64,000 nt of DNA from Pedobacter glucosidilyticus DSM 23534 (lineage in GTDB: Bacteria; Bacteroidota; Bacteroidia; Sphingobacteriales; Sphingobacteriaceae). This document shows, piece after piece, positions 16,840-33,561 of this stretch. A model generated the notes under the pieces. The model searched no databases. It worked only from the letters and a program-made list of their open reading frames with translations, and was not told the origin of the DNA. A program made the position numbers and the translations under genes. Positions within the stretch are counted from its first letter, which is position 1; every line of letters begins with the position of its first letter. The stretch lies in assembly GCF_000425145.1 (NCBI RefSeq), contig NZ_KE384314.1:1-64000 (forward strand), read 5' to 3'.

Positions 16840-17044
16840 GAATTACGATTGACGATTTTTGATTTTTCTTTGCGCTCTTTTCATTGCGCTCGTTTGTAAC
16901 GAGTGCTTAATATGGTTTAGCGATTCTATCGCACCTTTATTGTTGAATTACGATTGACGATTTTTGATTTTTCCTTGCACTCTTTTCCTTGCGCTCGTTT
17001 GTAACGAGTGCTTAATATGGCTTAGCGATTCTATCGCACCTTTA
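16840..17044. repeat. Two tandem 105-bp REP-like units
   Basis: Two near-identical units begin at 16840 and 16945 (period 105). Each contains two short palindromes: GCGCTCGTTTGTAACGAGTGC (16886-16906 and 16991-17011) with a CTCGTT/AACGAG stem, and GCGATTCTATCGC with a GCGAT/ATCGC stem. The second unit runs to the argH stop codon. Paired palindromes of this kind resemble REP/BIME elements mobilised by RAYT transposases; no transposase gene is present here. As RNA they could stabilise or attenuate the argH 3' end. Confidence 0.8.
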
Positions 17045-18410: not shown

Positions 18411-18460
18411 ATTTTTAAATCATCATTTCTTCAAATTCAATACAAAGTGATATTATTTAT
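18411..18460. repeat. Left copy of a 50-bp direct repeat bounding the Fic gene
   Basis: This 50-bp segment matches 19854-19903 at 46 of 50 positions. It covers the last codons and stop of the Fic gene plus about 42 bp downstream. See the right copy and the finding on the Fic cassette. Confidence 0.85.
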
Positions 18461-20204: not shown

Positions 20205-21269
20205 TCAAATAATCTCACTTATCATCTTCACATACAGCTTTATGCCTTTTTCAATTTCATCAACATAAATAAATTCATCTGCGGTATGGGAGCGGGCAGA
20301 ATCTCCCGGACCACATTTTAAAGATGGAATATTTAATAGAGCTTGGTCTGATGTTGTTGGCGAACCATAAGTTTTTCTACCTAAAGCAATACCTGCTTGT
20401 ACAATAGGATGATCTATTGGGATAGAAGATGGCTTTAACCGGGTTGAACGTGGTATCACTTCACAATCCACAAATTGCCTTATAATTTTTAGAACTTCCT
20501 CATTGGTGTAAGCATCTGTTACCCTTACATCAACTGTAAACTTACATTCATCAGGCACTACGTTATGTTGCGACCCCGCATTGATAATTGTAACTGTTGT
20601 TTTAATAGGGCCTAATGTTGGTGATACTTTTGTAAACTTATAATCTCTAAACCAAGCAATATCTTTTAAAGCTTTATAAATAGCGTTCTCACCTTCATTT
20701 CTTGCAGCATGACCAGATTTTCCTTTAGCCACGCAATCCAATACCAGCAAACCCTTCTCAGCCACTGCCAAATGCATTTCTGTAGGCTCACCTACAATGG
20801 CAAATTCTAGTTTACCTAAATCTGGCACAATGCGCTCTAAACCTTCTTTACCAGAGATTTCTTCTTCGGCCGTAGCTGCAATAAGGATATTATATTTTAA
20901 ATTTTCTTGCGGATAAAAGTATAAAAAAGTAGCTATTAAAGATACCAAAGCGCCTCCGGCATCATTACTTCCCAAACCAAAAAGCTTTCCATCAATAATT
21001 TCTGGCAAAAATGGGTCGCGAGTATAACCTTGATTAGGCTTTACCGTATCGTGGTGCGAATTCAACAAAATTGTTGGCTTCTTTGCATCAAAATGTAGAT
21101 TGTAAGCCCAAACATTATTCCCTTTTCGATGGATTTTTACGCCTCGCTGCTCTAAAAAAACAGCTATCTCATCAGCTGTTTTATCTTCTTCTTTACTTAA
21201 CGATGGGATAGCAATTAACCTTTGCAATAAGGCTAAAGCATCTTGAAACAAAATGTCTGTATCCATCAA
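20205..21269 (-). CDS. argE: M20-family N-acyl-ornithine/citrulline deacylase (ArgE-like)
   Basis: The 354-residue cytosolic zinc peptidase-like enzyme has M20 metal-site motifs: His72 and Asp74 in SHHDTV, Asp103 in GSNDAGG, the catalytic acid in TAEEEISG (135-137) and GEPTEM near 160. It removes the acyl group from the N-acyl-ornithine or N-acyl-citrulline intermediate. Because the operon uses an ArgF'-type transcarbamoylase, N-acyl-citrulline is the likely substrate, with acetyl versus succinyl left open. It follows proC by 3 bp in the same transcript. Two adjacent Met codons make the exact start uncertain by one residue. Confidence 0.88.
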   Translation of the reverse strand: MMDTDILFQDALALLQRLIAIPSLSKEEDKTADEIAVFLEQRGVKIHRKGNNVWAYNLHFDAKKPTILLNSHHDTVKPNQGYTRDPFLPEIIDGKLFGLGSNDAGGALVSLIATFLYFYPQENLKYNILIAATAEEEISGKEGLERIVPDLGKLEFAIVGEPTEMHLAVAEKGLLVLDCVAKGKSGHAARNEGENAIYKALKDIAWFRDYKFTKVSPTLGPIKTTVTIINAGSQHNVVPDECKFTVDVRVTDAYTNEEVLKIIRQFVDCEVIPRSTRLKPSSIPIDHPIVQAGIALGRKTYGSPTTSDQALLNIPSLKCGPGDSARSHTADEFIYVDEIEKGIKLYVKMISEII

Positions 21270-21272
21270 AAA

Positions 21273-22094
21273 TTAATCTTTATCGTATAATTCGCCAGCT
21301 TTTTGTGCTGATAATTTTATTCCTTTGATCATGGCCGAGCTAAAGCCGTTATGCTCCATCTCATTTAAACCGGCAATGGTACAGCCTTTCGGCGATGTTA
21401 CCTTATCAATCTCATGCTCTGGATGTGATGCTAGCTGTAAAAGTAAATCTGCCGCTCCTTTAGCCGTTTGTGCTGCCATTTTTAAAGCTTCGCCAGCATG
21501 AAAACCAACCTCAACACCACCTTGTGAAGCTGCTCTTATAGAACGTAAGAAAAATGCAATTCCGCAAGCACATAAGGCTGTAGCTGATGTCATGAGCTCT
21601 TCGTTAATCACCACACAAATACCTACCGTATTAAAGATATTTTTCACCAACTCTATATTTTCCTGGGACGCATTGCCTACCGAAATACAAGTCATGGATT
21701 GCTTAATAGCGATAGCCGTATTAGGCATTACCCTTACTACTTGCACATCTTTTTTCAACCTGTTTCTGATATCCTCGCAAGAAACGCCAGATATTACGGA
21801 AATGATTAAATGCTTACTTACATCTATTTGTCCAGCAATTTGATCTAATACCTGATTTAGTTGTTGAGGTAAAACCGCTAAAACAATAATATCAGCTTGG
21901 GCAGATGCTGAAACGTTATCTGCACTAACCTGAAAGCCTTGAAATTTATACTCATCTAAAGCCTCAATATTTCTTCTGGTTAAAGTGATGCTGGATGCTG
22001 GATATAAACCAGATTGTGCTAAACCTTTAGCCAGAGATAAACCGATATTACCACTTCCAAGAATGGCTATTTGATTTGATTTTTTAAAGTCCAT
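21273..22094 (-). CDS. proC: Pyrroline-5-carboxylate reductase
   Basis: This enzyme reduces pyrroline-5-carboxylate to proline with NAD(P)H. The 273-residue protein has the N-terminal Rossmann motif ILGSGNIGLSLAKGL, the RVMPNTAIAIKQSM segment, and the C-terminal family signature SPKGCTIAGLNEMEHNG (canonical SPGGTT becomes SPKGCT). It lies between argB (4 bp upstream) and the argE-like gene (3 bp downstream), tying proline and arginine synthesis together. The length is normal for the family. Confidence 0.93.
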   Translation of the reverse strand: MDFKKSNQIAILGSGNIGLSLAKGLAQSGLYPASSITLTRRNIEALDEYKFQGFQVSADNVSASAQADIIVLAVLPQQLNQVLDQIAGQIDVSKHLIISVISGVSCEDIRNRLKKDVQVVRVMPNTAIAIKQSMTCISVGNASQENIELVKNIFNTVGICVVINEELMTSATALCACGIAFFLRSIRAASQGGVEVGFHAGEALKMAAQTAKGAADLLLQLASHPEHEIDKVTSPKGCTIAGLNEMEHNGFSSAMIKGIKLSAQKAGELYDKD

Positions 22095-22098
22095 GGGC

Positions 22099-22890
22099 TT
22101 ATTTTGTTAATCTTGTTCCAAATATACTTTCTTTTTGTAAAGCAGCTAATTTAGCAGCATGACCGATATAAACTTCTTTCACCCCATTTTGTATGGCATC
22201 AAAAGCATTTTGTAGCTTGGGTAACATCCCATCAGCAATAATTCCATCGGCTTTTAGCTCTTCAAAATAAGATGGATTTATTTCTTTAATAACAGAATTA
22301 TCGTCATTGATATCTCGCATCACGCCATTTTTCTCAAAACAATAAATCAATTTTGTTTCATATAAAGATGATAAGCCTAGCGCTAAAGCCGAAGCAATAG
22401 TATCTGCATTGGTATTAAATAATTGACCATTTCCATCATGCGTAAGCGCATTAAAAACAGGTACTAAACCTGCTTCTAATAAGGTTTTGATGATATTGGC
22501 ATTCACAGAATCAGGCAATAAATCTCCTACAAAGCCAAAATCAACATCTTTAACGAGGCGTTTTATGGCTTTTATAGCGTTTGCATCGGCACCTGTCATC
22601 CCAATAGCGTTAATTTGGTTAGCTTGTAACTGAGCAACAATATTTTTATTCACTAAACCACCATACACCATGGTTACTACGTCTAGCATAGCAGCATCAG
22701 TAATTCTTCTGCCATTAACCATTTGCGTTTCTACACCTAGTTTTGCTGCCGTTTGTGTGGCTATCTTGCCGCCACCGTGAATTAAAATTTTAGCTCCAGA
22801 TAAGCTCGCAAAATCTTTTAAAAATTGTGCAAGTTGTATGGGGTTATCAATAACATTACCGCCTATTTTAATAATATATAATGGATTCAT
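22099..22890 (-). CDS. argB: N-acetylglutamate (or N-succinylglutamate) kinase
   Basis: The 263-residue amino-acid-kinase-fold protein shows YIIKIGGNVIDNP at the N-terminus, the ILIHGGGKIATQ phosphate-binding loop and NTNADTIASALALGL toward the C-terminus. It phosphorylates the N-acylglutamate gamma-carboxylate, the second step of the pathway. It overlaps the argF' stop by one base, which implies tight translational coupling. The N-terminal helix that mediates hexamerisation and arginine inhibition in some ArgB enzymes seems absent. That would fit control at the transcript level, as the upstream leader peptide suggests (inference). Confidence 0.93.
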   Translation of the reverse strand: MNPLYIIKIGGNVIDNPIQLAQFLKDFASLSGAKILIHGGGKIATQTAAKLGVETQMVNGRRITDAAMLDVVTMVYGGLVNKNIVAQLQANQINAIGMTGADANAIKAIKRLVKDVDFGFVGDLLPDSVNANIIKTLLEAGLVPVFNALTHDGNGQLFNTNADTIASALALGLSSLYETKLIYCFEKNGVMRDINDDNSVIKEINPSYFEELKADGIIADGMLPKLQNAFDAIQNGVKEVYIGHAAKLAALQKESIFGTRLTK

Positions 22891-23837
22891 TAGCTTCCTT
22901 TTAACATTGATTTAATTACCGCCTGAGCAGCCCAAACCCTATTATTTGCTTGATTAAGCACTAAAGAATTTGGTCCGTCTAGTATTTCGTGAGAAAGCTC
23001 TAAACCTCTTCTTACAGGTAAGCAATGCATTACACCGGCGTTGTTTGTGAGTTTTAACTTCTCGTTAGTCATCATCCAACCTTCACCATCAGAAAGTATT
23101 TTACCATAATCCTGATAAGAAGACCAATTTTTCACATAAACAAAATCAGCCCCGGCTAAAGCTTCATCTTGATTGTTGGTTACGACAGCATTTCCAACAA
23201 ATTCTGGCGCTAAATCATAACCTGCTGGGTGGGTAATAACAAAATCATAATCTGCTTTATTCATCCACTCTGCAAAAGAGTTGGCAACAGCTTGTGGCAA
23301 AGGTTTAACATGAGGTGCCCATGTTAATACCACTCTTGGTTTAGCTGTTGTTTTTAGCTCCTCAATGGTAATTAAATCGGCCAAACTTTGCAAAGGATGT
23401 CTGGTTGCCGATTCTAAACTTACTACTGGAACGCCACAAAACTGTACAAACTTGTTAAATATCAACTCAGAATAATCCTCATCTCTATCTTTTAAACCAG
23501 GAAAAGAACGTATACCGATGATATCACAATATTCTCCCATAACGCCGGCAGCTTCTCTGATATGTTCTACGGTGGTACCATTCATGATGATGCCATCTTG
23601 TGTTTCTAAAGCCCAGCCTTCTTTATCCATATTCATCACCATTACCTGCATACCTAAATTCATAGCTGCCTTTTGGGTGCTTAAACGGGTACGTAAGCTA
23701 GGATTTAAAAATATTAGACCAAGCGTTTTATGCTTTCCTAATTGCTCATCAGCAAAAGGATTGGCTTTTAATTGAATAGCTTCTGAAACCAGTTGGTTAA
23801 CATCAGTTACGTCTTTAACGGAGGAGAATAGTTTCAT
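22890..23837 (-). CDS. argF': N-acyl-ornithine carbamoyltransferase (ArgF' type)
   Basis: The 315-residue transcarbamoylase carries the carbamoyl-phosphate motif SLRTR (47-51), HPLQSLADL, the proline-rich loop HVKPLPQAVANSFAEW and HCLPVRRG. The proline-rich loop marks acetyl- or succinyl-ornithine transcarbamoylases rather than ordinary ornithine transcarbamoylase. From memory, the Bacteroides fragilis succinylornithine enzyme has Pro90 and the Xanthomonas acetylornithine enzyme has Glu at the equivalent place. Here the residue is Val90 (NGTTVEHI), so the acyl group used is uncertain. The product is N-acyl-citrulline. It overlaps argB by one base. Confidence 0.9.
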   Translation of the reverse strand: MKLFSSVKDVTDVNQLVSEAIQLKANPFADEQLGKHKTLGLIFLNPSLRTRLSTQKAAMNLGMQVMVMNMDKEGWALETQDGIIMNGTTVEHIREAAGVMGEYCDIIGIRSFPGLKDRDEDYSELIFNKFVQFCGVPVVSLESATRHPLQSLADLITIEELKTTAKPRVVLTWAPHVKPLPQAVANSFAEWMNKADYDFVITHPAGYDLAPEFVGNAVVTNNQDEALAGADFVYVKNWSSYQDYGKILSDGEGWMMTNEKLKLTNNAGVMHCLPVRRGLELSHEILDGPNSLVLNQANNRVWAAQAVIKSMLKGS

Positions 23838-23852
23838 CTTTATTGAGGGTTA

Positions 23853-24194
23853 TTAATCTATTTCTAAGCAAGCTAATTCCTGATAATCAGGATTATCTAT
23901 AAAATCTTTTATCAATTGATATTTATTGCAAAGAATCTCGGCAATATTTAATGTAGTGGTGTTTCCAAATCTTAACCAGATAATTTTAGGTGGATGCCCA
24001 TTAAGATTTGCTATTTCAAAAAAATCTGCATCAAAAGTTACGATGGTATATTCGTTCTTCTTTGCGAAATCCCAAATTTCTTTATCAGAGGAATTCTCAA
24101 GCTGTAAAGACCTTACTTGACCAGCATCGGGATAAAACTCTTGTATTTTAGCTAAAATTCTAAATGAAATATTCTGGTCAAAGAGTAGTTTCAC
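23853..24194 (-). CDS. DUF5615 PIN-like toxin
   Basis: The 113-residue protein begins MKLLFDQNISFRI and has DKEIWDFAKKNEYTIVTFD and DADFFE, the acidic layout of DUF5615/Mut7-C PIN-like nucleases. Asp6, Asp37, Asp55 and Asp57 are candidate metal ligands. It overlaps the DUF433 gene by one base; this pair is a recognised toxin-antitoxin arrangement. It lies in the arginine operon between the Phd/RelE-like pair and argF', 15 bp from argF', in the operon's own direction. Confidence 0.82.
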   Translation of the reverse strand: MKLLFDQNISFRILAKIQEFYPDAGQVRSLQLENSSDKEIWDFAKKNEYTIVTFDADFFEIANLNGHPPKIIWLRFGNTTTLNIAEILCNKYQLIKDFIDNPDYQELACLEID

Positions 24195-24415
24195 TATGCA
24201 ACTCGTATTTTATGTTCTCTATCAGCCGCATAAGCCAAACAGGCTTTAATTTGGTTATCAGATAACTCAGGAAAATCTTCTGTTATTTGCGCTATGGTCA
24301 TGCCATTAGCTAGCCAACTTAAGATATCATATACAGATATTCTGGTACCACAAACACAAGGCTTTCCAAACCTTATATTTGGCTCAATAGAAATATAATT
24401 TTGATATGCTATCAT
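24194..24415 (-). CDS. DUF433 antitoxin
   Basis: The 73-residue protein shows the DUF433 signature: FGKPCVCGTRISVYDILSWL followed by AQITEDFPELSDNQIKACL, a winged or helix-turn-helix-like fold. It is predicted to neutralise the DUF5615 nuclease encoded next, with which it shares one base (stop and start overlap). A 35-bp repeat with a TATATTTG box ends 20 bp upstream of its ATG, so the module may have its own promoter in addition to operon read-through. Confidence 0.85.
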   Translation of the reverse strand: MIAYQNYISIEPNIRFGKPCVCGTRISVYDILSWLANGMTIAQITEDFPELSDNQIKACLAYAADREHKIRVA

Positions 24416-24435
24416 AGCTTAAGTTTTTATGCTGA

Positions 24436-24470
24436 ACAAATATAACCATTATCAAAAAGAGTTGAAAACC
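24436..24470. repeat. 35-bp exact direct repeat, copy 1, with promoter-like box
   Basis: These 35 bases are identical to 24976-25010, exactly 540 bp away in the same orientation; together they bound the Phd/RelE-like pair. Read on the minus strand the repeat ends in TATATTTG (24437-24444), a perfect TAnnTTTG -7 box facing the DUF433 gene. Confidence 0.95.
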
Positions 24471-24487
24471 CATATAATTATTAATCC

Positions 24488-24778
24488 TTAGAAGCTTACA
24501 ATAGGATTTTGTCTATTATCCCAAAAGAACACTAATAAAATAGTTTGTTGTGATGTTTCATAAAATAGGGAGGTATGCTTTGATATGAATGCTTTGCGAA
24601 CATTTTTAATTTCTGATTCCTTAAATAAATAAGGATTTACAGCTATTTGTTCTAAAACTTTTAATGTTTGCACTCTTAACTTTTCTGCTTGTTTGATATT
24701 CCATTGAATAGAAACAAACTGATATATTGCATCAAAGGTTACTTCAGCTTCATCAGACCAACGTATTTCAAATTTCAT
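24488..24778 (-). CDS. RelE/ParE-superfamily toxin
   Basis: The 96-residue protein has the family pattern FEIRWSDEAEVTFDAIYQFV at the N-terminus, then AEKLRVQTLKVLEQI and NPYLFKESE, and a final strand TILLVFFWDNRQNP. RelE/ParE toxins are mRNA interferases or gyrase inhibitors; the sequence alone does not decide which. It overlaps its antitoxin by four bases (ATGA). The pair sits between argD and the DUF433 gene within 35-bp direct repeats, as a discrete cassette. Confidence 0.87.
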   Translation of the reverse strand: MKFEIRWSDEAEVTFDAIYQFVSIQWNIKQAEKLRVQTLKVLEQIAVNPYLFKESEIKNVRKAFISKHTSLFYETSQQTILLVFFWDNRQNPIVSF

Positions 24779-24972
24779 ACGTTATATTTTCTCATTACTT
24801 CTTCTGTAGATTTTGTAAGTCCGGCTTTACCCTGCTCCTGACCTCTTTTAATTCCTTCCTTAACGTGGTCGGGTAAAAGATTTGCACTTTCTAATAATGA
24901 GAGATAATCCTCCATACTTAGTTGTACAGCTGTTTTATTTCCTTTCTCGTCTACTAAATAAGTAACTGTCAT
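24775..24972 (-). CDS. Antitoxin of the RelE-like toxin
   Basis: The 65-residue acidic protein (VTYLVDEKGNKTAVQLSMED, then a Leu-rich helix) resembles the short Phd/prevent-host-death-like antitoxins encoded with ParE/RelE toxins: an N-terminal strand, a dimerisation helix and a C-terminal tail TEEVMRKYNV that would wrap the toxin. The ATG lies 4 bp beyond a TATATTTG box in the flanking repeat, so transcripts from it would be nearly leaderless. Antitoxins of this class usually repress their own promoter. Confidence 0.8.
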   Translation of the reverse strand: MTVTYLVDEKGNKTAVQLSMEDYLSLLESANLLPDHVKEGIKRGQEQGKAGLTKSTEEVMRKYNV

Positions 24973-24975
24973 ATC

Positions 24976-25010
24976 ACAAATATAACCATTATCAAAAAGA
25001 GTTGAAAACC
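24976..25010. repeat. 35-bp exact direct repeat, copy 2, at the argD stop
   Basis: Identical to 24436-24470. It touches the first base of the argD stop codon and ends 4 bp before the antitoxin ATG. The minus-strand TATATTTG box is at 24977-24984. Confidence 0.95.
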
Positions 25011-26143
25011 TAAGCTTTCAACTCCTTACTTAATGCTTCTAAAAATCTATCAGCGTGTTCTTTGGTTAGATTTAATGCTGGTAATAATCTAATCACGTTA
25101 GGTTTAGCTTCGCCAGTGAAAATATGATGGTTAAATAACAAGTTTTTCTTCACTTGGTTAAGCTCTTCTGGTAAATCAATACCAATCATTAAACCTTTGC
25201 CACGTACTTCTTTAATATGGTTTAGTTTCTGAAGCTCTTGAATTAAATAGCTGCCTATTTTAGCTGCATTATCCATCAAATGCTCTTGCTCCATCACTTC
25301 TAAAACGGCTAAGGCTGCCGCACAAGCCAAATGGTTACCACCAAAAGTGGTACCTAACATGCCATGCCAAGGTTTTAATGCTGGACTAATGCTAATACCA
25401 CCAATAGGAAAACCATTACCCATTCCTTTAGCCATGGTATAAATATCAGCATCTACACCTGCAAAATCTGAAGCATAAAACTTACCGCTTCTTCCGTAAC
25501 CACATTGTACAGAGTCTGCAATGAAATAAGCTCCGTATTGAGTACATAGGTTACGTATGGTTTTTAAAAACTCATCGCTAGCTACCTGTATACCGCCAAC
25601 CCCTTGAATACCTTCTATAATGACAGCACAAATTTCATCTCCTTGTTTTGCAAAAAGTTCATTTAATGCTTCTACATTGTTGTGTGGCAAGAAAACAACA
25701 TTTTCTGTTTGGTTAACCGGAGCTATAATTTTAGGATTATCTGTTGCCGATACTGCTAAAGATGTTCTGCCATGGAAAGCTTTGGTAAAAGCCACAACTT
25801 TTTTTCTTCCATTGGCAAAAGATGCCAATTTTAAAGCATTCTCATTAGCCTCGGCACCAGAGTTACACAAGAAAAGCTGATAATCTTCTCTGCCTGATGC
25901 CTTACCAAGTTTATCTGCCAATTCTTCCTGTAAAGGAATTTTAATAGAGTTTGAGTAAAAACCCAATTTACCTAACTGTTGCGTTAAGCGCTCTACATAA
26001 TGCGGATGCGTATGACCTATAGAGATTACAGCATGCCCGCCATAAAGGTCTAAATATTCCTGCCCTTTATCGTCCCAAACCAAGCTCCCTTGGCCTTTCA
26101 CGATTTCTATATTGTTTATTGGGTATACGTCGAAAAGTTTCAT
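25010..26143 (-). CDS. argD: N-acetyl(or succinyl)ornithine aminotransferase
   Basis: The 377-residue class III aminotransferase converts N-acylglutamate semialdehyde to N-acylornithine with glutamate. Lys239 in TMAKGMGNGFPIG binds PLP; CNSGAEANENALK (93-105) holds the phosphate, and Asp210 in ADSVQCGYGRSGK stacks the ring nitrogen. The usual DEVQTGxGR is DSVQCGYGR here. The stop overlaps a 35-bp repeat that introduces the first toxin-antitoxin cassette. It is separated from argC by an S23-type gene. Confidence 0.92.
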   Translation of the reverse strand: MKLFDVYPINNIEIVKGQGSLVWDDKGQEYLDLYGGHAVISIGHTHPHYVERLTQQLGKLGFYSNSIKIPLQEELADKLGKASGREDYQLFLCNSGAEANENALKLASFANGRKKVVAFTKAFHGRTSLAVSATDNPKIIAPVNQTENVVFLPHNNVEALNELFAKQGDEICAVIIEGIQGVGGIQVASDEFLKTIRNLCTQYGAYFIADSVQCGYGRSGKFYASDFAGVDADIYTMAKGMGNGFPIGGISISPALKPWHGMLGTTFGGNHLACAAALAVLEVMEQEHLMDNAAKIGSYLIQELQKLNHIKEVRGKGLMIGIDLPEELNQVKKNLLFNHHIFTGEAKPNVIRLLPALNLTKEHADRFLEALSKELKA

Positions 26144-26160
26144 GTTTTTTTAAGTTTAAA

Positions 26161-26182
26161 GTTGTAGGTTATAAGTTTTAAG
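26161..26182 (+). repeat. Imperfect inverted-repeat arm beside the S23-type gene
   Basis: GTAGGTTATAAGTTTTAAG appears here on the plus strand, and its counterpart CTTAAAACTTACTACTTATA lies at 26542-26561 on the other side of the four-helix gene. They share the 10-bp core AAGTTTTAAG in opposite orientations. The arms belong to an AT-rich intergenic repeat type and may mark the ends of the inserted segment (inference). Confidence 0.5.
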
Positions 26183-26540
26183 TACCAGAACCTCTAACTT
26201 TTTGTATCAATACAATTAACATTGCTTTAATTTCATTGATTAACTTTTCTGATTCTTCGAATTGATTCTGATTAATGTAATCTAAATCTCTGCTAAGAGT
26301 TAAAAAGTAGTCAACTTCATTTGCTGAACCTAAAGCAATATTCAAATATCTCGCAAAATCAGATTGGGTAAATTTGCCGCAACCTTCAGCTATGTTTGCT
26401 GGAATCGAAGAGCTTGCTCTTCTCATCTGACTAACCATACAGAATATTTCATCTTTAGGAAAGACTTTAGTTATTTCATAAATTTTAAGTGTAAAACGAT
26501 GCGACTTTTCCCAAACCTTTAATTCTTTGTAGTTCTGCAT
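26178..26540 (-). CDS. Four-helix bundle protein (S23 / 23S rRNA intervening-sequence family)
   Basis: The 120-residue protein opens with NYKELKVWEKSHRFTLKIYE and contains MRRASSSIPANIAEGCGK and FARYLNIALGSANEVDYFL, the hallmark of the S23 family first found in rRNA intervening sequences and related to the Avd protein of diversity-generating retroelements. Its biochemical role is not known; Avd relatives bind nucleic acids. No rRNA or reverse transcriptase is nearby. It lies in the arginine operon between argC and argD in the same orientation, bounded by imperfect inverted repeats, so it is likely an insertion. Confidence 0.9.
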   Translation of the reverse strand: MQNYKELKVWEKSHRFTLKIYEITKVFPKDEIFCMVSQMRRASSSIPANIAEGCGKFTQSDFARYLNIALGSANEVDYFLTLSRDLDYINQNQFEESEKLINEIKAMLIVLIQKVRGSGT

Positions 26541-26563
26541 GCTTAAAACTTACTACTTATAGC

Positions 26564-27595
26564 CTAAAACCCAATCGCTTTCAACCTCAATCCTTCCCTC
26601 TCATCCAAACCAAACATCAAATTCATATTCTGGACTGCTTGGCCAGAAGCTCCTTTCAACAAATTGTCAATAATAGATAATATCATCAGTTTATTGCCGT
26701 GTTTTTCTAGATGAATTAAGCATTTATTGGTATTCACAACTTGCTTTAAATCTATATTCTCTTTGCTGATATGTGTGAAAGGCGCATCTGCATAAAAATC
26801 TTGATATAATTTTTCTGCTTCTTCTAAACTTAAATCACAATCCATATAGCTTGAGGCCATAATTCCTCGCGAAAAAGCGCCTCTGTAGGGTATAAAATTT
26901 ATCTCTTTATCAAAATCAGCTTGTAATTGCAAAAGGCTTTCGCCGATTTCATTTAAATGCTGATGCTCAAAAGCTTTATAAACCGATAGGTTATTACTCC
27001 TCCAACTAAAATGAGAGGTTGTTGTTGGCTTTTGCCCTGCCCCTGTAGAACCTGTTGTTGCGGTGATGTGTACTTCAGATTTTAACAATCCTGCTTTAGC
27101 TAAAGGCAACAAAGCCAATTGCAGACAGGTTGCAAAACAACCTGGATTAGCAATGTTTTGAGCTGTTTTTATGGCTTCTTTGTTAAGCTCGGGTAAACCG
27201 TAAATAAATGCAGAAGGCTGAAGGCCTAAAGCTGAAGACTGATTTTCTAAATCGCTTTTAGCTTTTGGCTTTAAGCTTTTAGCTTTTAAACGAAAATCTT
27301 GAGAAAGGTCAATAATTTTGATATTATCATTAAAACTATTTGCTTCTAAAAACTTCCTAGCATCACCATGGCCAACGCATAAAAACAATACATCAATATC
27401 TTGTGATAATTTATCAGTAAAGGTTAAATCAGTATCGCCCAATAAATCTGTATGCACATCTGATATTAAATTACCAGCATTGCTGTTACTATGTACAAAA
27501 GCAATATCAACCTTTTGGTGATTAACCAAAATTCTTAAAAGCTCTCCACCTGTGTAGCCTGCTCCGCCAATGATGCCTACTTTAATATTACTCAT
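26564..27595 (-). CDS. argC: N-acetyl(or succinyl)-gamma-glutamyl-phosphate reductase with in-frame insertion
   Basis: This is the third pathway step, reducing the acylglutamyl phosphate to semialdehyde with NADPH. The 343-residue protein shows the NADP-binding GIIGGAGYTGGELLR at 8-22 and catalytic Cys153 in NPGCFATC. Between DLSQDFRL (96-103) and FIYGLPEL (130-137) there is an extra Lys/Ser-rich stretch of about 20-25 residues (KAKSLKPKAKS and so on) encoded by AAAGCTAAAAGC-type simple repeats, where relatives have only a few residues. The gene starts 1 bp after argG. The frame is intact, so the enzyme is probably functional. Confidence 0.93.
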   Translation of the reverse strand: MSNIKVGIIGGAGYTGGELLRILVNHQKVDIAFVHSNSNAGNLISDVHTDLLGDTDLTFTDKLSQDIDVLFLCVGHGDARKFLEANSFNDNIKIIDLSQDFRLKAKSLKPKAKSDLENQSSALGLQPSAFIYGLPELNKEAIKTAQNIANPGCFATCLQLALLPLAKAGLLKSEVHITATTGSTGAGQKPTTTSHFSWRSNNLSVYKAFEHQHLNEIGESLLQLQADFDKEINFIPYRGAFSRGIMASSYMDCDLSLEEAEKLYQDFYADAPFTHISKENIDLKQVVNTNKCLIHLEKHGNKLMILSIIDNLLKGASGQAVQNMNLMFGLDEREGLRLKAIGF

Positions 27596-27596
27596 C

Positions 27597-28790
27597 TTAA
27601 AGCCCTTCGTTTACTTTATGCCAGATACTTACTTGGTTACCAAATATTTTGGAGAATCCTTTTACATCGTCTCCGGTGTAACCTTCATTCATCTCGCCAT
27701 AGCTACCAAATTTACTACTCATCAAATCATTCTCAGACTCGATACCAATAATCTGGAATCTGTAAGGTAACAGCTGTACAAATACTTTTCCGTTAACTGT
27801 TTTCTGTGTATTTTCTAAGAAAGCTTCAATATCTCTCATCACTGGGTCATGAAACTGACCTTCATGCATCCAATTTCCGTAGAACATAGCTAATTGGTCT
27901 TTCCAGCTTAACTGCCACTTGGTTAAAGTATGCTTTTCTAAAGCATGATGAGCTTTAATAATCACCATAGGTGCCGCAGCTTCAAAACCAACTCTTCCTT
28001 TTATCCCAATAATGGTATCGCCTACGTGGATATCTCTACCTACACCAAACGGAGCAGCAATTTCTTGTAAAACTTGAACTGCTTCTGTTGGATGGTTATA
28101 TTTTTTACCATTTACAGCTACTAACTGCCCCTTTACAAATTCAAGCTCAACATTTTCTGCCTCTGTTTTGGTTACTTGAGTTGGCCATGCCTCTTCTGGT
28201 AGCATACCATTAGAAGTTAGGGTTTCTTTACCTCCTACAGATGTACCCCAAATGCCTTTATTGATAGAGTATTTAGCTTTTTCGGCATTAATTTCTACGC
28301 CATGTTTATGTAGATATTCAATCTCAGCTTCTCGGCTCAATTTCAAATCTCTAATAGGCGTAATGATACCCACTTTAGGAACCAAGATATTGAAAATCAT
28401 ATCAAAGCGCACTTGGTCATTACCAGCACCAGTACTACCATGAGCAACAAAATCAGCATTAATTTCTTTTGCATAGTTTGCAATAGCAGTAGCTTGGGTA
28501 ACACGCTCTGCACTTACAGAAAGTGGGTAAGTATTATTTTTTAATACATTACCAAACACTAAATATTTTAAACAAGAATCATAATAGCCTTTTACTGCAT
28601 CAACAGCATGATGAGAAGCTACCCCTAAACTGTAGGCTCTTTCTTCTATCTGCTTTAATTCTTCTTCAGAAAAACCTCCTGTATTTACAATTACCGAGTG
28701 TACTTCTAAATCCAAATCTTTAGTAAGATATATGCAACAAAATGAGGTATCTAATCCTCCGCTAAAGGCTAAAACTACTTTTTTCTTCAT
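27597..28790 (-). CDS. argG: Argininosuccinate synthase
   Basis: The 397-residue protein joins citrulline and aspartate using ATP. The PP-loop motif AFSGGLDTSFCC near residue 8 is diagnostic, followed by HGSTGAGNDQVRFDM and SINKGIWGTSVGGKET. It comes after the GNAT gene by 64 bp, a gap holding a hairpin-forming dispersed repeat, and precedes argC by 1 bp. Its length is typical for the family. Confidence 0.96.
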   Translation of the reverse strand: MKKKVVLAFSGGLDTSFCCIYLTKDLDLEVHSVIVNTGGFSEEELKQIEERAYSLGVASHHAVDAVKGYYDSCLKYLVFGNVLKNNTYPLSVSAERVTQATAIANYAKEINADFVAHGSTGAGNDQVRFDMIFNILVPKVGIITPIRDLKLSREAEIEYLHKHGVEINAEKAKYSINKGIWGTSVGGKETLTSNGMLPEEAWPTQVTKTEAENVELEFVKGQLVAVNGKKYNHPTEAVQVLQEIAAPFGVGRDIHVGDTIIGIKGRVGFEAAAPMVIIKAHHALEKHTLTKWQLSWKDQLAMFYGNWMHEGQFHDPVMRDIEAFLENTQKTVNGKVFVQLLPYRFQIIGIESENDLMSSKFGSYGEMNEGYTGDDVKGFSKIFGNQVSIWHKVNEGL

Positions 28791-28796
28791 TTTTTT

Positions 28797-28840
28797 AGTA
28801 TTGAGTATTGAGATATGAGATTTGCGATCTCATATTTCGA
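28797..28840. repeat. Dispersed TATTGAG repeat with a 9-bp hairpin
   Basis: Two TATTGAG-type units are followed by ATATGAGAT-TTGCG-ATCTCATAT (stem 28813-28821 with 28827-28835), between the GNAT and argG genes. A related ATATGAGATTTGCG segment without the second arm occurs at 37025-37040. In RNA the hairpin could modulate processing between the first two genes of the operon; there is no T-run. Confidence 0.65.
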
Positions 28841-28854
28841 TACAGATTTATTCT

Positions 28855-29511
28855 TTAAATTAATCCGGCTACTACCATTTTTAAAGAACGACGCAATTTA
28901 GCTTCTATTCTTTCTAGTAAAGTAGCTTTATGTGTTATCTTCTTTAATCTTTCAGCTTCTTCGGCTTTTTTCTCTTCTGGGTCGTAAAGCATGGCTGTAC
29001 ACATACAATTTTGCCTGTTTTTACTCATCAAGATATCGTAGTTTACACAACTTTGACAGCCTTTCCAAAAATTCTCATCTTGTGTTAGTTGCGAGTAAGT
29101 AACCGGTTCGTAACCTAAATCAGAATTGATTTTCATCACTGCTAAACCTGTTGTTAAACCAAATATCTTAGCGTCTGGATATTTTTCCCTAGATAAATCA
29201 AATATCTTAAACTTAATAGCTTTAGCCAAACCAGCCTTACGATAGATAGGGTTAACTATTAAACCAGAGTTAGCCACAAACTCGCCATGGCTCCAGGTTT
29301 CTATATAACAAAAGCCTGCCCATGTACCGTCTTTGTGCAAAGCAATAACAGCTTTACCTTCTAACATTTTATTGGCAACATATTCTGGAGAACGCTTTGC
29401 TATACCTGTTCCACGTACTTTTGCAGAGGTTTCCATCTCTGTGCAAATAGTTTCTGCATAACCTACATGTTGCAAACCAGCAACCAGTATGTTAAAATCG
29501 TTAATATGCAT
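28855..29511 (-). CDS. GNAT acetyltransferase at the head of the arginine operon, probable ArgA analogue
   Basis: The 218-residue GNAT-fold protein has the acyl-CoA-binding motif A segment NPIYRKAGLAKAIKFK (87-102). As the first gene of the operon and the only acyltransferase in it, it is the best candidate for making N-acetyl- or N-succinylglutamate, since no argA or argJ is present (inference from context). The C-terminal part has Cys152 and Cys155 (CQSC) and Cys169 and Cys171 (CMC), a possible zinc site, and a charged helix. The start lies 14 nt after a hairpin with a U-run in the leader region, so its expression is likely set by attenuation. Confidence 0.75.
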   Translation of the reverse strand: MHINDFNILVAGLQHVGYAETICTEMETSAKVRGTGIAKRSPEYVANKMLEGKAVIALHKDGTWAGFCYIETWSHGEFVANSGLIVNPIYRKAGLAKAIKFKIFDLSREKYPDAKIFGLTTGLAVMKINSDLGYEPVTYSQLTQDENFWKGCQSCVNYDILMSKNRQNCMCTAMLYDPEEKKAEEAERLKKITHKATLLERIEAKLRRSLKMVVAGLI

Positions 29512-29516
29512 TTTTT

Positions 29517-29545
29517 GAAAAAGATAAATCCTTCATGAGGGATTT
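29517..29545 (-). terminator. Terminator-like hairpin in front of the first arginine gene
   Basis: On the minus strand AAATCC-CTCATGAA-GGATTT forms a 6-bp stem followed by ATCTTTTTC. The end of the U-run is about 5 nt from the GNAT start codon. It could act as the attenuator's terminator or hide the ribosome-binding region. The stem is short, so strength is uncertain. Confidence 0.45.
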
Positions 29546-29572
29546 TAATCAGAATAAACAAAAATTAATTAG

Positions 29573-29653
29573 AGACCTGTTTACTTACAAACAGAAAAAG
29601 ATGTCGAAATTATCAGCAGAGGTTTAGGCCCTGGTGACAAACAGAGGTCTTCG
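29573..29653 (-). promoter_or_regulatory. Mutually exclusive RNA pairings of the arg attenuator
   Basis: The downstream segment AAACAGGTCT (29573-29582 on the minus strand) can pair in two ways. Locally, its AAACAG part pairs with CTGTTT (29589-29594), giving a 6-bp hairpin with loop GTAAGT. Long-range, it pairs with AGACCTCTGTTT (29639-29650), which overlaps the Arg and Pro codons of the leader ORF. Because the second partner lies where ribosomes would stall or read through, the choice could depend on charged arginyl-tRNA. Which state terminates is not settled from the sequence. Confidence 0.5.
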
Positions 29654-29761
29654 TCGTAGTAAACGAATAGATGTGTGTAAATCAGAAAGCAACATATAGA
29701 AATTAAGCACCTTTTTAAGGGCTGTTAATTTCTTGAAGGTATGTAAGTTTTGTTGTTTCAT
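29624..29761 (-). CDS. Arginine-rich leader peptide of the arg operon
   Basis: This 45-codon ORF starts with ATG (MKQQNLHTFKK), preceded by the purine-rich GGATAAAAGAA. It ends in a cluster IRLLRRRPLFVTRA with five Arg among its last 13 residues, three of them consecutive (CGA CGA AGA). It lies 112 bp upstream of the GNAT gene, on the same strand as the operon, and its 3' part overlaps a sequence able to pair with the downstream leader. This is the classic layout of an amino-acid leader peptide whose translation senses the end product, here arginine. The ORF is too short for homology-based recognition; the Arg run placed ahead of an arg operon is the key evidence. Confidence 0.75.
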   Translation of the reverse strand: MKQQNLHTFKKLTALKKVLNFYMLLSDLHTSIRLLRRRPLFVTRA

Positions 29762-29859
29762 TTCTTTTATCCATCAGCCACTTAGGGCTAATATTTGACG
29801 CAAAAGAGCGTATTATTTTTATTAATTACAATAAAAAAATGCAATTAATATGAATATAA

Positions 29860-29896
29860 CACAGAGGTGCTTTTAAGATTACATAACACCTCTGTG
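29860..29896 (-). terminator. Hairpin after the desaturase gene
   Basis: A perfect 10-bp stem CACAGAGGTG / CACCTCTGTG with a 17-nt loop lies 10 bp after the desaturase stop. The following bases on the minus strand are TTATATTC rather than a T-run, so termination may be partial or the hairpin may mainly stabilise the 3' end. Confidence 0.65.
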
Positions 29897-29905
29897 CGAA
29901 AGTTA

Positions 29906-30634
29906 TTAAACCTTTCTTAATTTGATAATTTTTACCCAATGTAAAACCTTTAAAATAGGGTAAACTGGATCAAACTCGAACCATTTTTTTGCAAAATTTG
30001 GACTGTTTGGAAACTTATGGTGATTGTTCTGAAAAAGCTCTCCTAACATAAAGAAATCAAAAGGAGTTGAGTTTTTAGATTTATCATCATTATCGAAATT
30101 TGAATAACCGTATTTGTGGCCACACCAATTAACAATAGCTCCATGTAATGGACCCATAATAAAATGGATTGGTAATAATAAAAACATCCACCAAGAGGTT
30201 GCAAAAAATACATAAAATGCAATGTAACCTAAGCCAAATAAAATTCTAGTGATAAAAGAAGAAGCTACTTTATCTATAAATTTCCACTCTGGATAGTTCC
30301 CTTTAAACTCTTTATCCGCTTGTAAGGTTCCTTCTGCAAAGCCATTATACATACCTCTAGTGTTCCACATCATTTGAAAAACATCTTCAAAAAAATGTGG
30401 CGAGTGTGGATCTTTCTCTGTGTCTGAGAAAGCATGGTGCATACGATGCATAATAGCATAAGCTTTAGGCACTAAATAAGATGCTCCCTGACTAAACCAT
30501 GTAAAAATGTAAAAGGCTTTCTCCCAGAACTTGTTTAAGGTAAACATTTTGTGAGAAGCATAACGGTGAAGGTAGAAAGTTTGGGCAAAAAGGGACAAAA
30601 ACCAGTGTGCCAAAAAGAAAATAAGAATGTACAT
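29906..30634 (-). CDS. Membrane fatty-acid (acyl-CoA/acyl-lipid) desaturase
   Basis: The 242-residue membrane di-iron desaturase carries three histidine boxes: HRYASH at 23-28, HRMHH at 63-67 with DPHSPH following, and QNNHH near residue 205. Hydrophobic segments lie at 1-20, 40-58 and 140-160. The family inserts a double bond, often delta-9, into fatty acyl chains using oxygen. It is somewhat shorter than typical delta-9 desaturases (about 250-300). It stands alone, with a downstream hairpin and an 85-bp gap to the TPR gene. Confidence 0.9.
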   Translation of the reverse strand: MYILIFFLAHWFLSLFAQTFYLHRYASHKMFTLNKFWEKAFYIFTWFSQGASYLVPKAYAIMHRMHHAFSDTEKDPHSPHFFEDVFQMMWNTRGMYNGFAEGTLQADKEFKGNYPEWKFIDKVASSFITRILFGLGYIAFYVFFATSWWMFLLLPIHFIMGPLHGAIVNWCGHKYGYSNFDNDDKSKNSTPFDFFMLGELFQNNHHKFPNSPNFAKKWFEFDPVYPILKVLHWVKIIKLRKV

Positions 30635-30719
30635 GTGTGATTTTAAAAATTCAGATAATATAATCTGGTTGCTAAATTAAGGTAATTGTTTATTATCTAC
30701 TAAAAACATAGAATAAATT

Positions 30720-31760
30720 TTAGCGATAAATATTAGAATTAACGTAACTTTCACGCTCTTTGTTATAGATGACGCTATATATTTCTGCTTTTTCTTTACT
30801 TCCCAGTTTAAAATAGGTAATAGCAAGATTTTTTAAAACATCAAATTGAAAGCGTTCGTTTTGATGATTAATAAGCTTTTCTGCCTTTTGTAAATCTATT
30901 AAAGCAAGATCATAATCTTTTATTTTATTTTTAACTTTTGCCAACATCAGTAAAGAACGTATGATACCTTCTTGTTGTTGAATTTTGTTTGCTAAAATAT
31001 TTGCTTGTACGAAGAACCATTTAGCTTCTGTAAACTTGTTCTGGAATAAATATATCCGCCCCAATTGCATATAACAATCAATTTCAGCTTGTTTGCTATT
31101 AAGCTTGTAAGCTATAAGTAAAGTTTTGGTTAAAATTTGTTGCTCTGCTTGTTTAAAATATCCTGCCTTTAGCCATAGCTCGTTTTGTTGTAGTAAAGCA
31201 TTTATATAACTTTTATCGTTTTGGCTAATACGAAAACCTGCCAAAGCAATGGTATTATAATCTGCTGCGGCTTTGTCTTCACCAAAAATTACCGCTAGTT
31301 GATATAGAAAACTAGCTATTTGTGCAACTTTAGCGTGGTTAAGTTGCATTTGATACAGGATTAGAGCTTTATTAAAATGATGGTAAGCTATATTTAAATC
31401 GCCTGCTAGGGTTTCTGTTACAGCCATCATCATGTATAAACCTGCCTGTCTTTCTTTCAAATTTGCCTCTGAATAAAAAATCAGTTGCTGAGGTAAGGAA
31501 TTAAAATAAAGTTGATGCTGATGATAAGTTATTGCACTTATCCCAATATTTAAACTTAAAACATCGCTTATTTTTTTGATAAGCTCTTGAGGGTTTAATA
31601 AAGCTAATTCATCTGCTATGAGACTGTTATTAAAAGATTTAATAAATACAGTATCAACAAATTTTTGTTGAGGAGTAGGGTAAGAATTAAGCTTTTTGTT
31701 TGCAAAACTATCTTCTAACACAAAAATAAAAAACGTTGATAATAATAACAGACGTAGCAT
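30720..31760 (-). CDS. Secreted or periplasmic TPR-repeat protein
   Basis: The 346-residue protein starts with a signal peptide (MLRLLLLSTFFIFVLEDSFA). It is largely helical with degenerate tetratricopeptide repeats, for example KQAEIDCYMQLGRIYLFQNK and QFDVLKNLAITYFKLGSKEK. No catalytic domain and no transmembrane/histidine-kinase part is present, though similar TPR arrays often precede kinases or regulators in this phylum. It lies 34 bp after the sugar-isomerase-like gene and may be read from that operon. Function is unassigned. Confidence 0.7.
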   Translation of the reverse strand: MLRLLLLSTFFIFVLEDSFANKKLNSYPTPQQKFVDTVFIKSFNNSLIADELALLNPQELIKKISDVLSLNIGISAITYHQHQLYFNSLPQQLIFYSEANLKERQAGLYMMMAVTETLAGDLNIAYHHFNKALILYQMQLNHAKVAQIASFLYQLAVIFGEDKAAADYNTIALAGFRISQNDKSYINALLQQNELWLKAGYFKQAEQQILTKTLLIAYKLNSKQAEIDCYMQLGRIYLFQNKFTEAKWFFVQANILANKIQQQEGIIRSLLMLAKVKNKIKDYDLALIDLQKAEKLINHQNERFQFDVLKNLAITYFKLGSKEKAEIYSVIYNKERESYVNSNIYR

Positions 31761-31794
31761 TTACATGTTTAAGAAGTAAAAGAAAGAAAAAAAA

Positions 31795-32661
31795 TTAAAT
31801 AATCCTTCTTAATCTTTTTGCACTTATTTTTATACTCTCATAAGGGTCAATATCAAAATTTTCTTGCTCTACGATAGGATATTTAAGTCCGGCAGTTTTA
31901 GCTTCTTTTATAAAAGACTCAAAATTTATGGTTCCGCTGCCTATTTCAGTATTCTTTGCAGGATTAACTTCATCCATATCTTTAACATGCCATAAAGTAA
32001 AACGTCCTTTATAATCTTTAAATAATTTTACAACATCCTGTTTAGCTCTAACAGCCCAGTATAAATCTAATTCGAACTCTATTTTAGGACTTGTGTGTTC
32101 TAATAAAATTTCATAGGCCGTTTTATTTCCTAGTTGTTTAAACTCAAAATCGTGATTATGGTAGGCTAATGTTAATTCTTCATTTTCTAGTTTGAGTGCG
32201 GCTTTATTAAGCTTATCGGCAAAAGCTTTTACGCTTTCTACGGTATTAAATATTTGAGGATTAATAAAAGGAACTATAATATAAGTTTGCTTCAATATTT
32301 TTGCCGCCTCTATGTAAGAAGCTAAAATATTATCATCACCTGTTTTTTCCCAATCGCTAAATTCGTAATGGGCACTTGGGCAAGTAAGGTTATACTTATC
32401 TAAAAGTTGTTTAAACTGTGTTGGTTTTAAACCCCAGAAACCATCTTTTACCGAGTAACCATAGGCTTCTACCCAAGAATAACCTGCTTTTGATACCTCA
32501 GCAATTACATTTTCTACACCTTTAGAAAATTCGTTTCTTAACGAATATAGTTGTATCCCTATTCTTTTTTTATCATCTACCAAACATCCAAGATTTGGTA
32601 ATACTAAAACCGATGCGGCAGCTAAGCCTACCTGCCTTAAAAATACTCTTCTGTTATCCAT
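31795..32661 (-). CDS. Tat-exported TIM-barrel sugar isomerase/epimerase-like lipoprotein
   Basis: The 288-residue protein begins with a twin-arginine-type signal (NRRVFLRQVG) and a possible lipobox LPNLGC. The mature part is a xylose-isomerase-like AP-endonuclease 2 TIM barrel with metal-ligand positions in YHNHDFEF, FELDLYW, WHVKDMDE and VEQENF. Family members isomerise or epimerise sugars or keto-sugars. It is the last of ten tightly spaced genes with a GMC oxidoreductase and DUF1080 protein, so a role in processing 3-keto sugars in the periplasm is plausible (inference). Confidence 0.82.
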   Translation of the reverse strand: MDNRRVFLRQVGLAAASVLVLPNLGCLVDDKKRIGIQLYSLRNEFSKGVENVIAEVSKAGYSWVEAYGYSVKDGFWGLKPTQFKQLLDKYNLTCPSAHYEFSDWEKTGDDNILASYIEAAKILKQTYIIVPFINPQIFNTVESVKAFADKLNKAALKLENEELTLAYHNHDFEFKQLGNKTAYEILLEHTSPKIEFELDLYWAVRAKQDVVKLFKDYKGRFTLWHVKDMDEVNPAKNTEIGSGTINFESFIKEAKTAGLKYPIVEQENFDIDPYESIKISAKRLRRII

Positions 32662-32673
32662 TTTAAATAAAAA

Positions 32674-33561
32674 CTAAACATCACAAATTTTTACTGCTTG
32701 ATATAAAGATGCTATTTTATTTTCTTTTATCGGAATAAATTCTTGTGCAACATAACCTTTAAAACCTGTTGCTACAATGGCTTTCATAATAGCCGGATAG
32801 TTGAGCTCTTGGCTATCATCTATCTCATTTCTGCCTGGTACGCCAGCTGTGTGGTAGTGCGCAATATAAGGGTGGCTATCTCTTATGGTATGGATAACAT
32901 CTCCTTCATCTACCTGCATGTGGTAAATATCATAAAGTAATTTGAAATTTTCTGAGCCAACTCTTTTACAAAGTTCAACACCCCAAGCTGTTTTATCAGC
33001 AAAATAATCTTTATGGTTAATTTTACTGTTTAAAAGTTCCATTACCAAGGTTACTTTATGCTTTTCTGCTAGTGCCATCAGCTTTTTTAAACCTTTAGCT
33101 GCATTGTTTAAACCTGTTTCATCATCCATACCTCTGCGGTTTCCGCTAAAACAAATGAGATTTTTATAACCTGCTTTAGCAACTATAGGAATCATTTCGG
33201 TATAATTCTGGATAAGCTTCTCATGAAAATTAGGCTCTGCAAAGCCATCAACCAAATTGATTTCTGCGCCGTTACACATGCTAGAATCTATACCATGTTT
33301 TTTGAGAATATCCCACTCTTTAGGACCAACCAAATCGATAGCTTTTATACCTATTTTTTTTGATAAAATACAAAGCTCTTCTAAAGACAAGAAACCATAA
33401 GTCCATTTACATACTGCGTGGTTAATATTGCCTTTTAGTTTGGTGCTTTGTTCTCCATCTAAGGGGTGTGCAAAATTTAGCATAGGTATTGAAGTTAAAG
33501 CGGCAGTTCCTGTCACTATATTTTTAATAACCGTTCTTCTATTCGTTATTTTAGGCATCAT
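32674..33561 (-). CDS. Hydroxypyruvate-isomerase-like TIM-barrel protein with Tat signal
   Basis: The 295-residue protein starts with a Tat-type signal (TNRRTVIKNIV, then ALTSIPMLNFA). The mature domain resembles the hydroxypyruvate isomerase/Hyi group: AVCKWTYG near the start, LVMELLNS, LLYDIYHMQVDEGD, HYHTAGVPGRNE and VAQEFIP, giving a complete Glu-Asp-His-Glu metal site. It lies 8 bp after the MFS gene and 12 bp before the next isomerase. Export suggests that it acts on a periplasmic sugar rather than on cytosolic hydroxypyruvate. Confidence 0.85.
   Translation of the reverse strand: MMPKITNRRTVIKNIVTGTAALTSIPMLNFAHPLDGEQSTKLKGNINHAVCKWTYGFLSLEELCILSKKIGIKAIDLVGPKEWDILKKHGIDSSMCNGAEINLVDGFAEPNFHEKLIQNYTEMIPIVAKAGYKNLICFSGNRRGMDDETGLNNAAKGLKKLMALAEKHKVTLVMELLNSKINHKDYFADKTAWGVELCKRVGSENFKLLYDIYHMQVDEGDVIHTIRDSHPYIAHYHTAGVPGRNEIDDSQELNYPAIMKAIVATGFKGYVAQEFIPIKENKIASLYQAVKICDV

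Follow-up and report, generated by a model that had tools for sequence, protein, structure and literature searches.

Leader-peptide attenuators are known for the his, trp, leu, thr and ilv operons, in which a short ORF carrying codons for the end product precedes the biosynthetic genes. Arginine biosynthesis is in many bacteria placed under the ArgR repressor, and in fungi the nascent chain of the arginine attenuator peptide senses free arginine, with the ribosome stalling at the stop codon. The theory of leader-peptide attenuators, in the part that concerns us here, treats a biased choice among synonymous codons (PMC1183508). According to the parts of its description drawn upon here, the rbfL leader ORF of S. 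aureus detects a shortage of arginine by way of Arg codons that depend on a scarce tRNA, and it controls a biofilm regulator in that the paused ribosome blocks the downstream ribosome-binding site (PMC13009471). TnaC and SpeFL are described as ligand sensors in the corresponding portion of PMC8429421. For Bacteroidota, leader-peptide attenuation of amino-acid operons has been suggested in connection with structured 5' regions of Flavobacterium psychrophilum, and the section on these regions names no arginine operon (PMC9723704). Searches of the open-licence PMC literature brought up no paper describing a leader of this kind, for arginine and ahead of arg genes, in Bacteroidota, and, going by the cited portions of the two papers, rbfL (PMC13009471) and the general Flavobacterium psychrophilum remark (PMC9723704) are the nearest published cases.

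The locus described here lies in a window of 64,000 nucleotides (the whole stretch of DNA that was analysed). It resembles the his, trp, leu, thr and ilv attenuators in placing a short ORF with end-product codons before a biosynthetic operon and, as far as the cited part of the theory covers it, in its biased use of synonymous codons. It differs from them in that the amino acid is arginine, that a rare codon, CGA, occurs in tandem, that a non-Arg residue is conserved at a fixed distance from the stop, that the length of the ORF is nearly constant, that a hairpin lies over the stop codon and that no conserved terminator was found. With rbfL, as described in the parts cited above, it would share the perception of arginine limitation through Arg codons; rbfL, however, does not serve an arg operon and belongs to another phylum. 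Conserved residues near the stop codon and a proposed stall at termination are common to TnaC, SpeFL (in the cited portion of their description), the fungal arginine attenuator peptide and the leader of the window; unlike TnaC and SpeFL, the latter has one Arg fixed as a codon, and its sensing of a ligand would be hypothetical. ArgR likely performs the same task as the leader, arginine control of the arg operon, but it is a protein.

The leader ORF and its arg operon

A preliminary description of the window placed a 45-codon ATG ORF ending in IRLLRRRPLFVTRA in line with a GNAT gene, with 112 nt between the leader stop and the GNAT ATG and with argG, argC and argD following, and the letters of the window bear out each of these points; argF'-, argB-, proC-, argE- and argH-like genes lie further on.

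29624-29761, minus strand: leader ORF, 45 codons, ATG at 29761, TAA at 29626-29624, MKQQ...SIRLLRRRPLFVTRA
29651-29656, minus strand: tandem CGA CGA codons, the proposed pause site, present in 75/76 named leaders
29627-29635, minus strand: last codons, T-R-A, conserved at the amino-acid level (relatives mostly P-R-A/V/F/I)
28855-29511, minus strand: first operon gene, GNAT-fold acetyltransferase by PDB sequence match to GNAT PA4794 (E 2e-6)
27597-28790, minus strand: argG, Pfam and TIGR00032 above cut-off
26564-27595, minus strand: argC, TIGR01850 above cut-off
25010-26143, minus strand: argD, top NCBIfam match TIGR00707 below cut-off; Aminotran_3 (Pfam)
22890-23837, minus strand: argF' (N-acetylornithine carbamoyltransferase-like), top NCBIfam match NF003384 just under cut-off; OTCace domains
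22099-22890, minus strand: putative argB-like gene, named from a Pfam match
21273-22094, minus strand: putative proC-like gene, named from a Pfam match
20205-21269, minus strand: putative argE-like M20 peptidase, named from a Pfam match
18453-19802, minus strand: Fic protein (Pfam match), between the argE-like and argH-like genes
17042-18373, minus strand: putative argH-like lyase, named from a Pfam match

The first gene of the operon was without a Pfam or NCBIfam match; it adjoins argG in relatives too and is a possible candidate for the N-acetylglutamate synthase of this group. Its closest counterpart among the named GNAT sequences comes from a Pedobacter glucosidilyticus assembly (Sphingobacteriaceae). 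The arg genes between 17042 and 22890 may form one transcription unit with GNAT-argG. A RelB-like/ParE pair and a DUF433/DUF5615 pair are situated between argD and argF' (23853-24972), and a gene in the argC-argD interval (26178-26540) encodes a 23S rRNA-intervening-sequence protein.

The Arg-rich end of the leader, likewise pointed out beforehand, is unusual for the window, at least five Arg in the last 13 residues being unique among its 267 ATG ORFs of 20-60 codons. No Rfam match at gathering score was obtained in a scan of positions 22000-33000.

Of 100 genomes, 65 have a GNAT orthologue, as do 275 of 301 family genomes and 56 of 60 genomes of Pedobacter proper; a set of 80 named loci was kept besides. 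Loci of the 100-genome and named sets were all examined and those of the other two sets in part: 30 loci and 20 further stretches, which yielded 34 new loci, were used from the 275 matching genomes, and the best 30 of the 56 from Pedobacter proper; named and other loci partly share genomes. Under an amino-acid rule, 76 of the 80 named loci have a leader of this type ahead of the GNAT-arg operon, recognised as an ORF whose Arg-rich end lies 80-175 nt from GNAT; none was seen in L087, L156, L128 and L150, the last two of which have little upstream sequence. With no Arg rule applied, an ORF of exactly 44 codons occupied the leader's place in 28 of 29 usable loci of Pedobacter proper. When the ATG nearest to 43 codons was taken (3 of 157 leaders are without an ATG in range), 134 of 154 unique leaders proved to be 44 (n=91) or 41 (n=43) codons long, while their stop codons lie anywhere between 82 and 154 nt from GNAT.

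A sequence model built from 62 leader ends (R1) found 41 places at E<0.01 in the 100 genomes, all just upstream of GNAT, as judged from coordinates, and one per genome; since many of them are the model's own source sequences, the informative part is that no other places appeared at this threshold. R1 missed some leaders seen otherwise, for example in genomes G006, G051 and G052, and nine hits at E 0.0197-0.048, away from the GNAT upstream site, were taken as chance. The conserved Arg-rich ORF that the preliminary description expected in related genomes is present in their upstream regions, and, as far as sequence comparison can tell, a leader ORF with a conserved, translated-looking, Arg-rich end across the family Sphingobacteriaceae is real.

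Two small-genome members of the window's genus (L014 and L062) carry a degenerate leader without CGA-CGA, and genome G004, one of this pair, has a stop inside the GNAT frame. In a second leader type, seen in L023, L028, L033, L036, L052, L255 and L257, the stop is immediately preceded by P-R-R or R-R-R; when the first five of these were folded, a hairpin CGC-TGAT-GCG enclosed the stop codon.

The leader body is fast-evolving, with pN/pS of 0.77, 0.73, 0.60, 0.84, 0.52 and 0.52 in six clades, and the last 8 codons gave 0.00, 0.32, 0.16, 0.35, 0.00 and 0.00 in the same clades. Counted from the stop in the 157 unique leaders kept for this purpose (L192, which has a short flank, was left out), Arg recurs at -8 in 153, Pro at -3 in 142 and Arg at -2 in 155; the two Arg counts are partly built in, as both the amino-acid rule and the rule by which the Pedobacter and added Sphingobacterium loci were picked demanded Arg at certain places, and Pro -3 and codon choice are independent of those rules. 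Every one of the four Pro codons is used at -3 and every one of the six Arg codons at -2, so that at these positions the amino acid itself is kept. At Arg -8, by contrast, it is the codon that is fixed: 117 of 129 leaders have CGA there, and all 28 Pedobacter leaders have CGG. The tail is thus not independent of synonymous codon choice, position -8 being fixed as CGA/CGG whereas -3 and -2 vary.

The preference for CGA shows in the tandem pair, which is in frame in the said 75 of 76 named leaders, a codon count repeated on loci chosen by the amino-acid rule without the CGNCGN rule, as against none of the 32 Arg-Arg pairs in window ORFs of at least 150 codons, 23 of which are AGA-AGA. CGA also makes up 316 of 509 Arg codons in the leader tail versus 7 of 155 in the body, counts biased by the fact that 132 of 160 loci had passed the CGNCGN rule. 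CGG and CGA are the least used Arg codons in the long ORFs of the window (0.4 and 1.1 per 1000 codons, AGA reaching 18.8), a rarity in keeping with ribosomes pausing where a codon is poorly decoded. The CGA pair of the window's own leader occupies positions -10 and -9 and is followed by AGA. CGA is read through inosine wobble of tRNA-Arg(ACG); the tRNA-Arg anticodons found in the genome were UCU, CCU, ACG and CCG, and a tRNA-Arg with a UCG anticodon was not found, which is a weak negative since the tRNA list itself is without tRNA-Pro and thus incomplete.

The same tail could perceivably act as an arrest peptide, the nascent chain sensing free arginine in the tunnel and stalling at the stop codon, with the hairpin P1 described below reading the stall; the sensing element would then be the conserved end, i.e. 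Arg -8, Pro -3, Arg -2, one residue and the stop. Conservation at the amino-acid level at a fixed distance from the stop is indeed what we find: Pro -3 and Arg -2 are retained through all of their synonymous codons, tail pN/pS is 0-0.35, the spacing to the stop is fixed and the length of the ORF nearly constant, and most leaders of Pedobacter proper have just 2 Arg in the last 12 codons (26 of 28). A fixed codon at Arg -8 would, however, be needless for a peptide sensor, and we consider this explanation unlikely.

A promoter-like element precedes the leader.

29800-29831, minus strand: promoter-like element, TTG at 29831-29829 and TTTGC at 29804-29800, offset 27

The corresponding motif, TTG-N21-25-TTTG[CT], which we take to be the Bacteroidota promoter type and which was defined after the sequences had been seen, precedes the start codon of 106 of 153 leaders, as compared with a mean of 3.7 and a maximum of 7 in 20 rounds of dinucleotide shuffling. 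In the window it lies upstream of 29624, the point beyond which a transcription start would have told against the preliminary description. A stricter form, TAnnTTTG, was present in 52 of 153 leaders versus 13 of 763 windows inside GNAT; it is absent before the window's own leader.

RNA structures between the leader tail and the GNAT start

Three hairpins can be drawn in the region that leads from the leader tail to the first gene.

29611-29639, minus strand: hairpin P1 (29639-29631/29619-29611), stop codon in the loop; covariation and own fold
29577-29594, minus strand: hairpin P2 (core 29594-29589/29582-29577); own fold
29517-29545, minus strand: hairpin P3 (29545-29540/29531-29526) with ATCTTTTTC tail, just before the GNAT start; weak fold

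P1, which was absent from the preliminary description, is by our measures the structure with the best covariation at the locus. Its 5' arm lies within codons -5 to -2 (29639-29631), and in the window it folds at -9.6 kcal/mol (z -2.3). In the window's genus 94.8% of cells are paired (slid versions at most 48%) and 8 cells carry a double change, compared with 2.8 in shuffled alignments, none of 500 of which reached 8. In 50 wider sequences, for which the structure was specified by the analyst beforehand and not taken from the consensus fold, 92.2% of cells are paired (slid versions at most 66%), with 20 double-change cells versus 6.9. Two of the five measures were no better than shuffles in both sets, namely how many pairs show a double change (3 vs 2.5 and 3 vs 2.1 shuffled) and further pair types. 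Judged by folding energy, P1 is most distinct in the genus (mean z -2.67) and Sphingobacterium (-2.44), less so in Pedobacter proper (-1.26) and the rest (-1.31), and weak in Mucilaginibacter (-0.73). The consensus fold of the 50 wider sequences contained no pairs because rows of differing loop length misalign, and R1 was therefore built from sequence only.

The locus was initially drawn as a classical transcription attenuator, in which the segment with the last Arg codons (29639-29650) would pair with 29573-29582, the latter could form a local hairpin with 29589-29594 instead, and a U-run hairpin before the first gene would serve as terminator. A conserved short ORF rich in end-product codons does lie upstream of the operon, as such an attenuator would have it, and the local hairpin exists (folding with 8 pairs at -5.3 kcal/mol, z -4.0); a hairpin at the P2 site appears in the consensus fold of eight genus members and is absent from that of the five nearest. 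The Arg-codon pairing fared less well. Complementarity is there, with a 2-nt bulge, and the best duplex of the segment reaches -10.1 kcal/mol in L001 and -10.0 kcal/mol in L004, but members of the genus differ in whether they retain it: the duplex with a member's own downstream stretch beats the mean obtained with the stretches of other members in 7 of 12, clearly in L010, L011 and L005 and by about 1 kcal/mol in L001 and L004, and weaker in the other 5 (L002, L006, L007, L012, L013). As a consistently conserved feature it was rejected on this count.

The proposed terminator is similarly doubtful, P3 being weak in the window (-4.6 kcal/mol, z -0.66) and missed by a terminator scan, which found no intrinsic terminator before the first gene. 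A hairpin was found at the place of P3 in all 12 genus members folded, with the U-run missing in 8 of them. The P3 region has a mean of -6.8 kcal/mol (z -1.08) in the genus, versus -3.3 kcal/mol (z 0.10) for 44 long-ORF starts of the window, and z from -0.28 to -1.02 in other groups (-0.28 to -0.54 outside the genus and Pedobacter proper, barely below shuffles). Among 27 selected loci, 18 have a hairpin with a T-rich tail, mostly a weak one, and 9 have none. With P3 weak in the window and U-less in 8 of the 12 genus members, an intrinsic terminator was rejected as a conserved output; the U-run terminator is no conserved part of the system, and control of translation initiation is as likely. 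We thus do not regard attenuation by transcription termination as established, and control at translation initiation fits at least as well. The classical attenuator, possible as its pairing is in the window, strikes us as very unlikely.

In Sphingobacterium (32/32) and Parapedobacter (8/8), a GGTCG element just upstream of the GNAT start can pair with CGACC in the Arg-Pro codons (score at least 4). Mean scores, for which there is no shuffled control, are 6.34 and 4.44 in these two groups and -0.42 to 3.04 in the others, in a comparison that leaves out 7 of 38 'rest' leaders and in which the segment tested in the other groups is not always CGACC, 15 of 28 Pedobacter leaders reaching 4.5 with an A/T-rich segment. 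Such uniform matches are in line with the view that CGACGACC is an RNA or DNA element, a pairing partner or a protein site, in which the coding of Arg is incidental. The lower scores elsewhere, the in-frame position of CGA-CGA in nearly every named leader, the frame that stays open despite a diverging body and the tail kept by amino acid all speak against this view, however, and we find it extremely improbable. As regards mutually exclusive pairings in general, P1 is conserved, the alternative is mixed in the genus and a long-range helix is clear in the two clades just named.

A loop-loop contact between P1 and P2 may be a clade-level lead: its mean score is 3.66 vs 1.38 swapped in Sphingobacterium and 1.56 vs 0.32 in Parapedobacter, and groups beyond these two gave no clear signal. 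In Sphingobacterium (L029, L044, L123-L160 in part, L165-L184) the P1 and P2 loops seem to change in step, as GAGCT/AGCTC and GGGCT/GTCC. In Pedobacter proper, a hairpin that would sequester the start codon has 94.7% of cells paired (26 rows, 19 distinct) with no covariation, and it therefore remains a suggestion.

Arginine sensing and the relation to ArgR

A domain search found neither of the two ArgR domains in any of 61 family genomes, the window's own included. Both domains were found in 2 of the 100 genomes, with the control genomes positive in 9 and 8 of 14. The C-terminal domain was met in 8 of 148 genomes of the class Bacteroidia; one of these matches, in G433, is weak, has an internal stop and lies far from argG. 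Five of the other seven genomes have argG (G092, G402, G430, G456 and G480), and in all five argR is located just before GNAT-argG, i.e. in the leader's place, as judged from coordinates and from the GNAT match in between. An ORF with at least three Arg in its tail was present in none of these five and in 31 of the 49 other genomes outside the family (Fisher p 0.011, relatedness ignored). Taken over all 54 unique outside-family genomes (60 rows minus six repeats; G401 and G447, with partial argG, left out), the 31 are those in which an upstream ORF has three or more Arg among its final 12 codons; shuffles reach this number in 12.9% and the opposite strand in 10 of 54, so that some of the 31 may not have a true leader. 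The leader would stand in for ArgR, which the family Sphingobacteriaceae appears to lack.

The leader, its codon bias, the peptide-level conservation of its tail, P1 and the promoter-like motif are all read in the DNA itself, and from them we infer how arginine might be sensed and how P1 might be coupled to expression. We consider it probable that the leader is a regulatory arginine leader peptide and that ribosome pausing at CGA controls the GNAT-arg operon, in replacement of ArgR; the idea of an arginine leader as such is strongly supported by the comparisons above, and most likely the leader would let the ribosome sense arginine shortage and switch the arg genes. Transcription would start upstream of the leader ORF, as the promoter-like motif suggests, and a ribosome translating the leader would pause at the tandem CGA when arginyl-tRNA is short. 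Given the geometry of the sequence, whether the ribosome is on the Arg codons, at the stop codon or gone could decide whether P1 forms; P1 together with P2 would in turn govern whether the hairpin next to the GNAT start codon is formed or open, and expression of the GNAT-arg operon would follow from this. The control may be exerted through readthrough or through translation initiation, either of which would be possible.

Sensing at the level of codons is favoured here because of CGA, and sensing by the nascent chain is kept in play by the conserved Pro -3, by a constant spacing and by how few Arg the tails of Pedobacter proper contain. It counts against the preferred account that Pro -3 is conserved though proline is not the end product of the operon, that these tails in Pedobacter proper are poor in Arg, that neither a conserved intrinsic terminator nor a consistently retained alternative pairing was found, that two of the P1 measures equal shuffles and P1 is weak in Mucilaginibacter, that P3 is hardly stable in most groups, and that outside the family the case rests on the Arg count. 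A more far-reaching proposal would unite the two modes: the P-R-x-stop leader of near-fixed length would be the arginine sensor of arg operons across ArgR-less Bacteroidia, combining codon sensing (at the tandem CGA) with nascent-chain sensing of arginine at the stop codon, would have been exchanged with argR in evolution, and would be to bacteria what the arginine attenuator peptide is to fungi. In this full extent we deem it quite unlikely.

Taken together, our findings provide a natural case of a rare tandem codon conserved across most of a family, and the 157 unique natural variants represent a resource for telling codon sensing from nascent-chain sensing. With the pausing leader as the preferred explanation, they point to an alternative to ArgR, made of RNA and the ribosome, in a large family, and suggest how a group without ArgR could regulate the arginine pathway.
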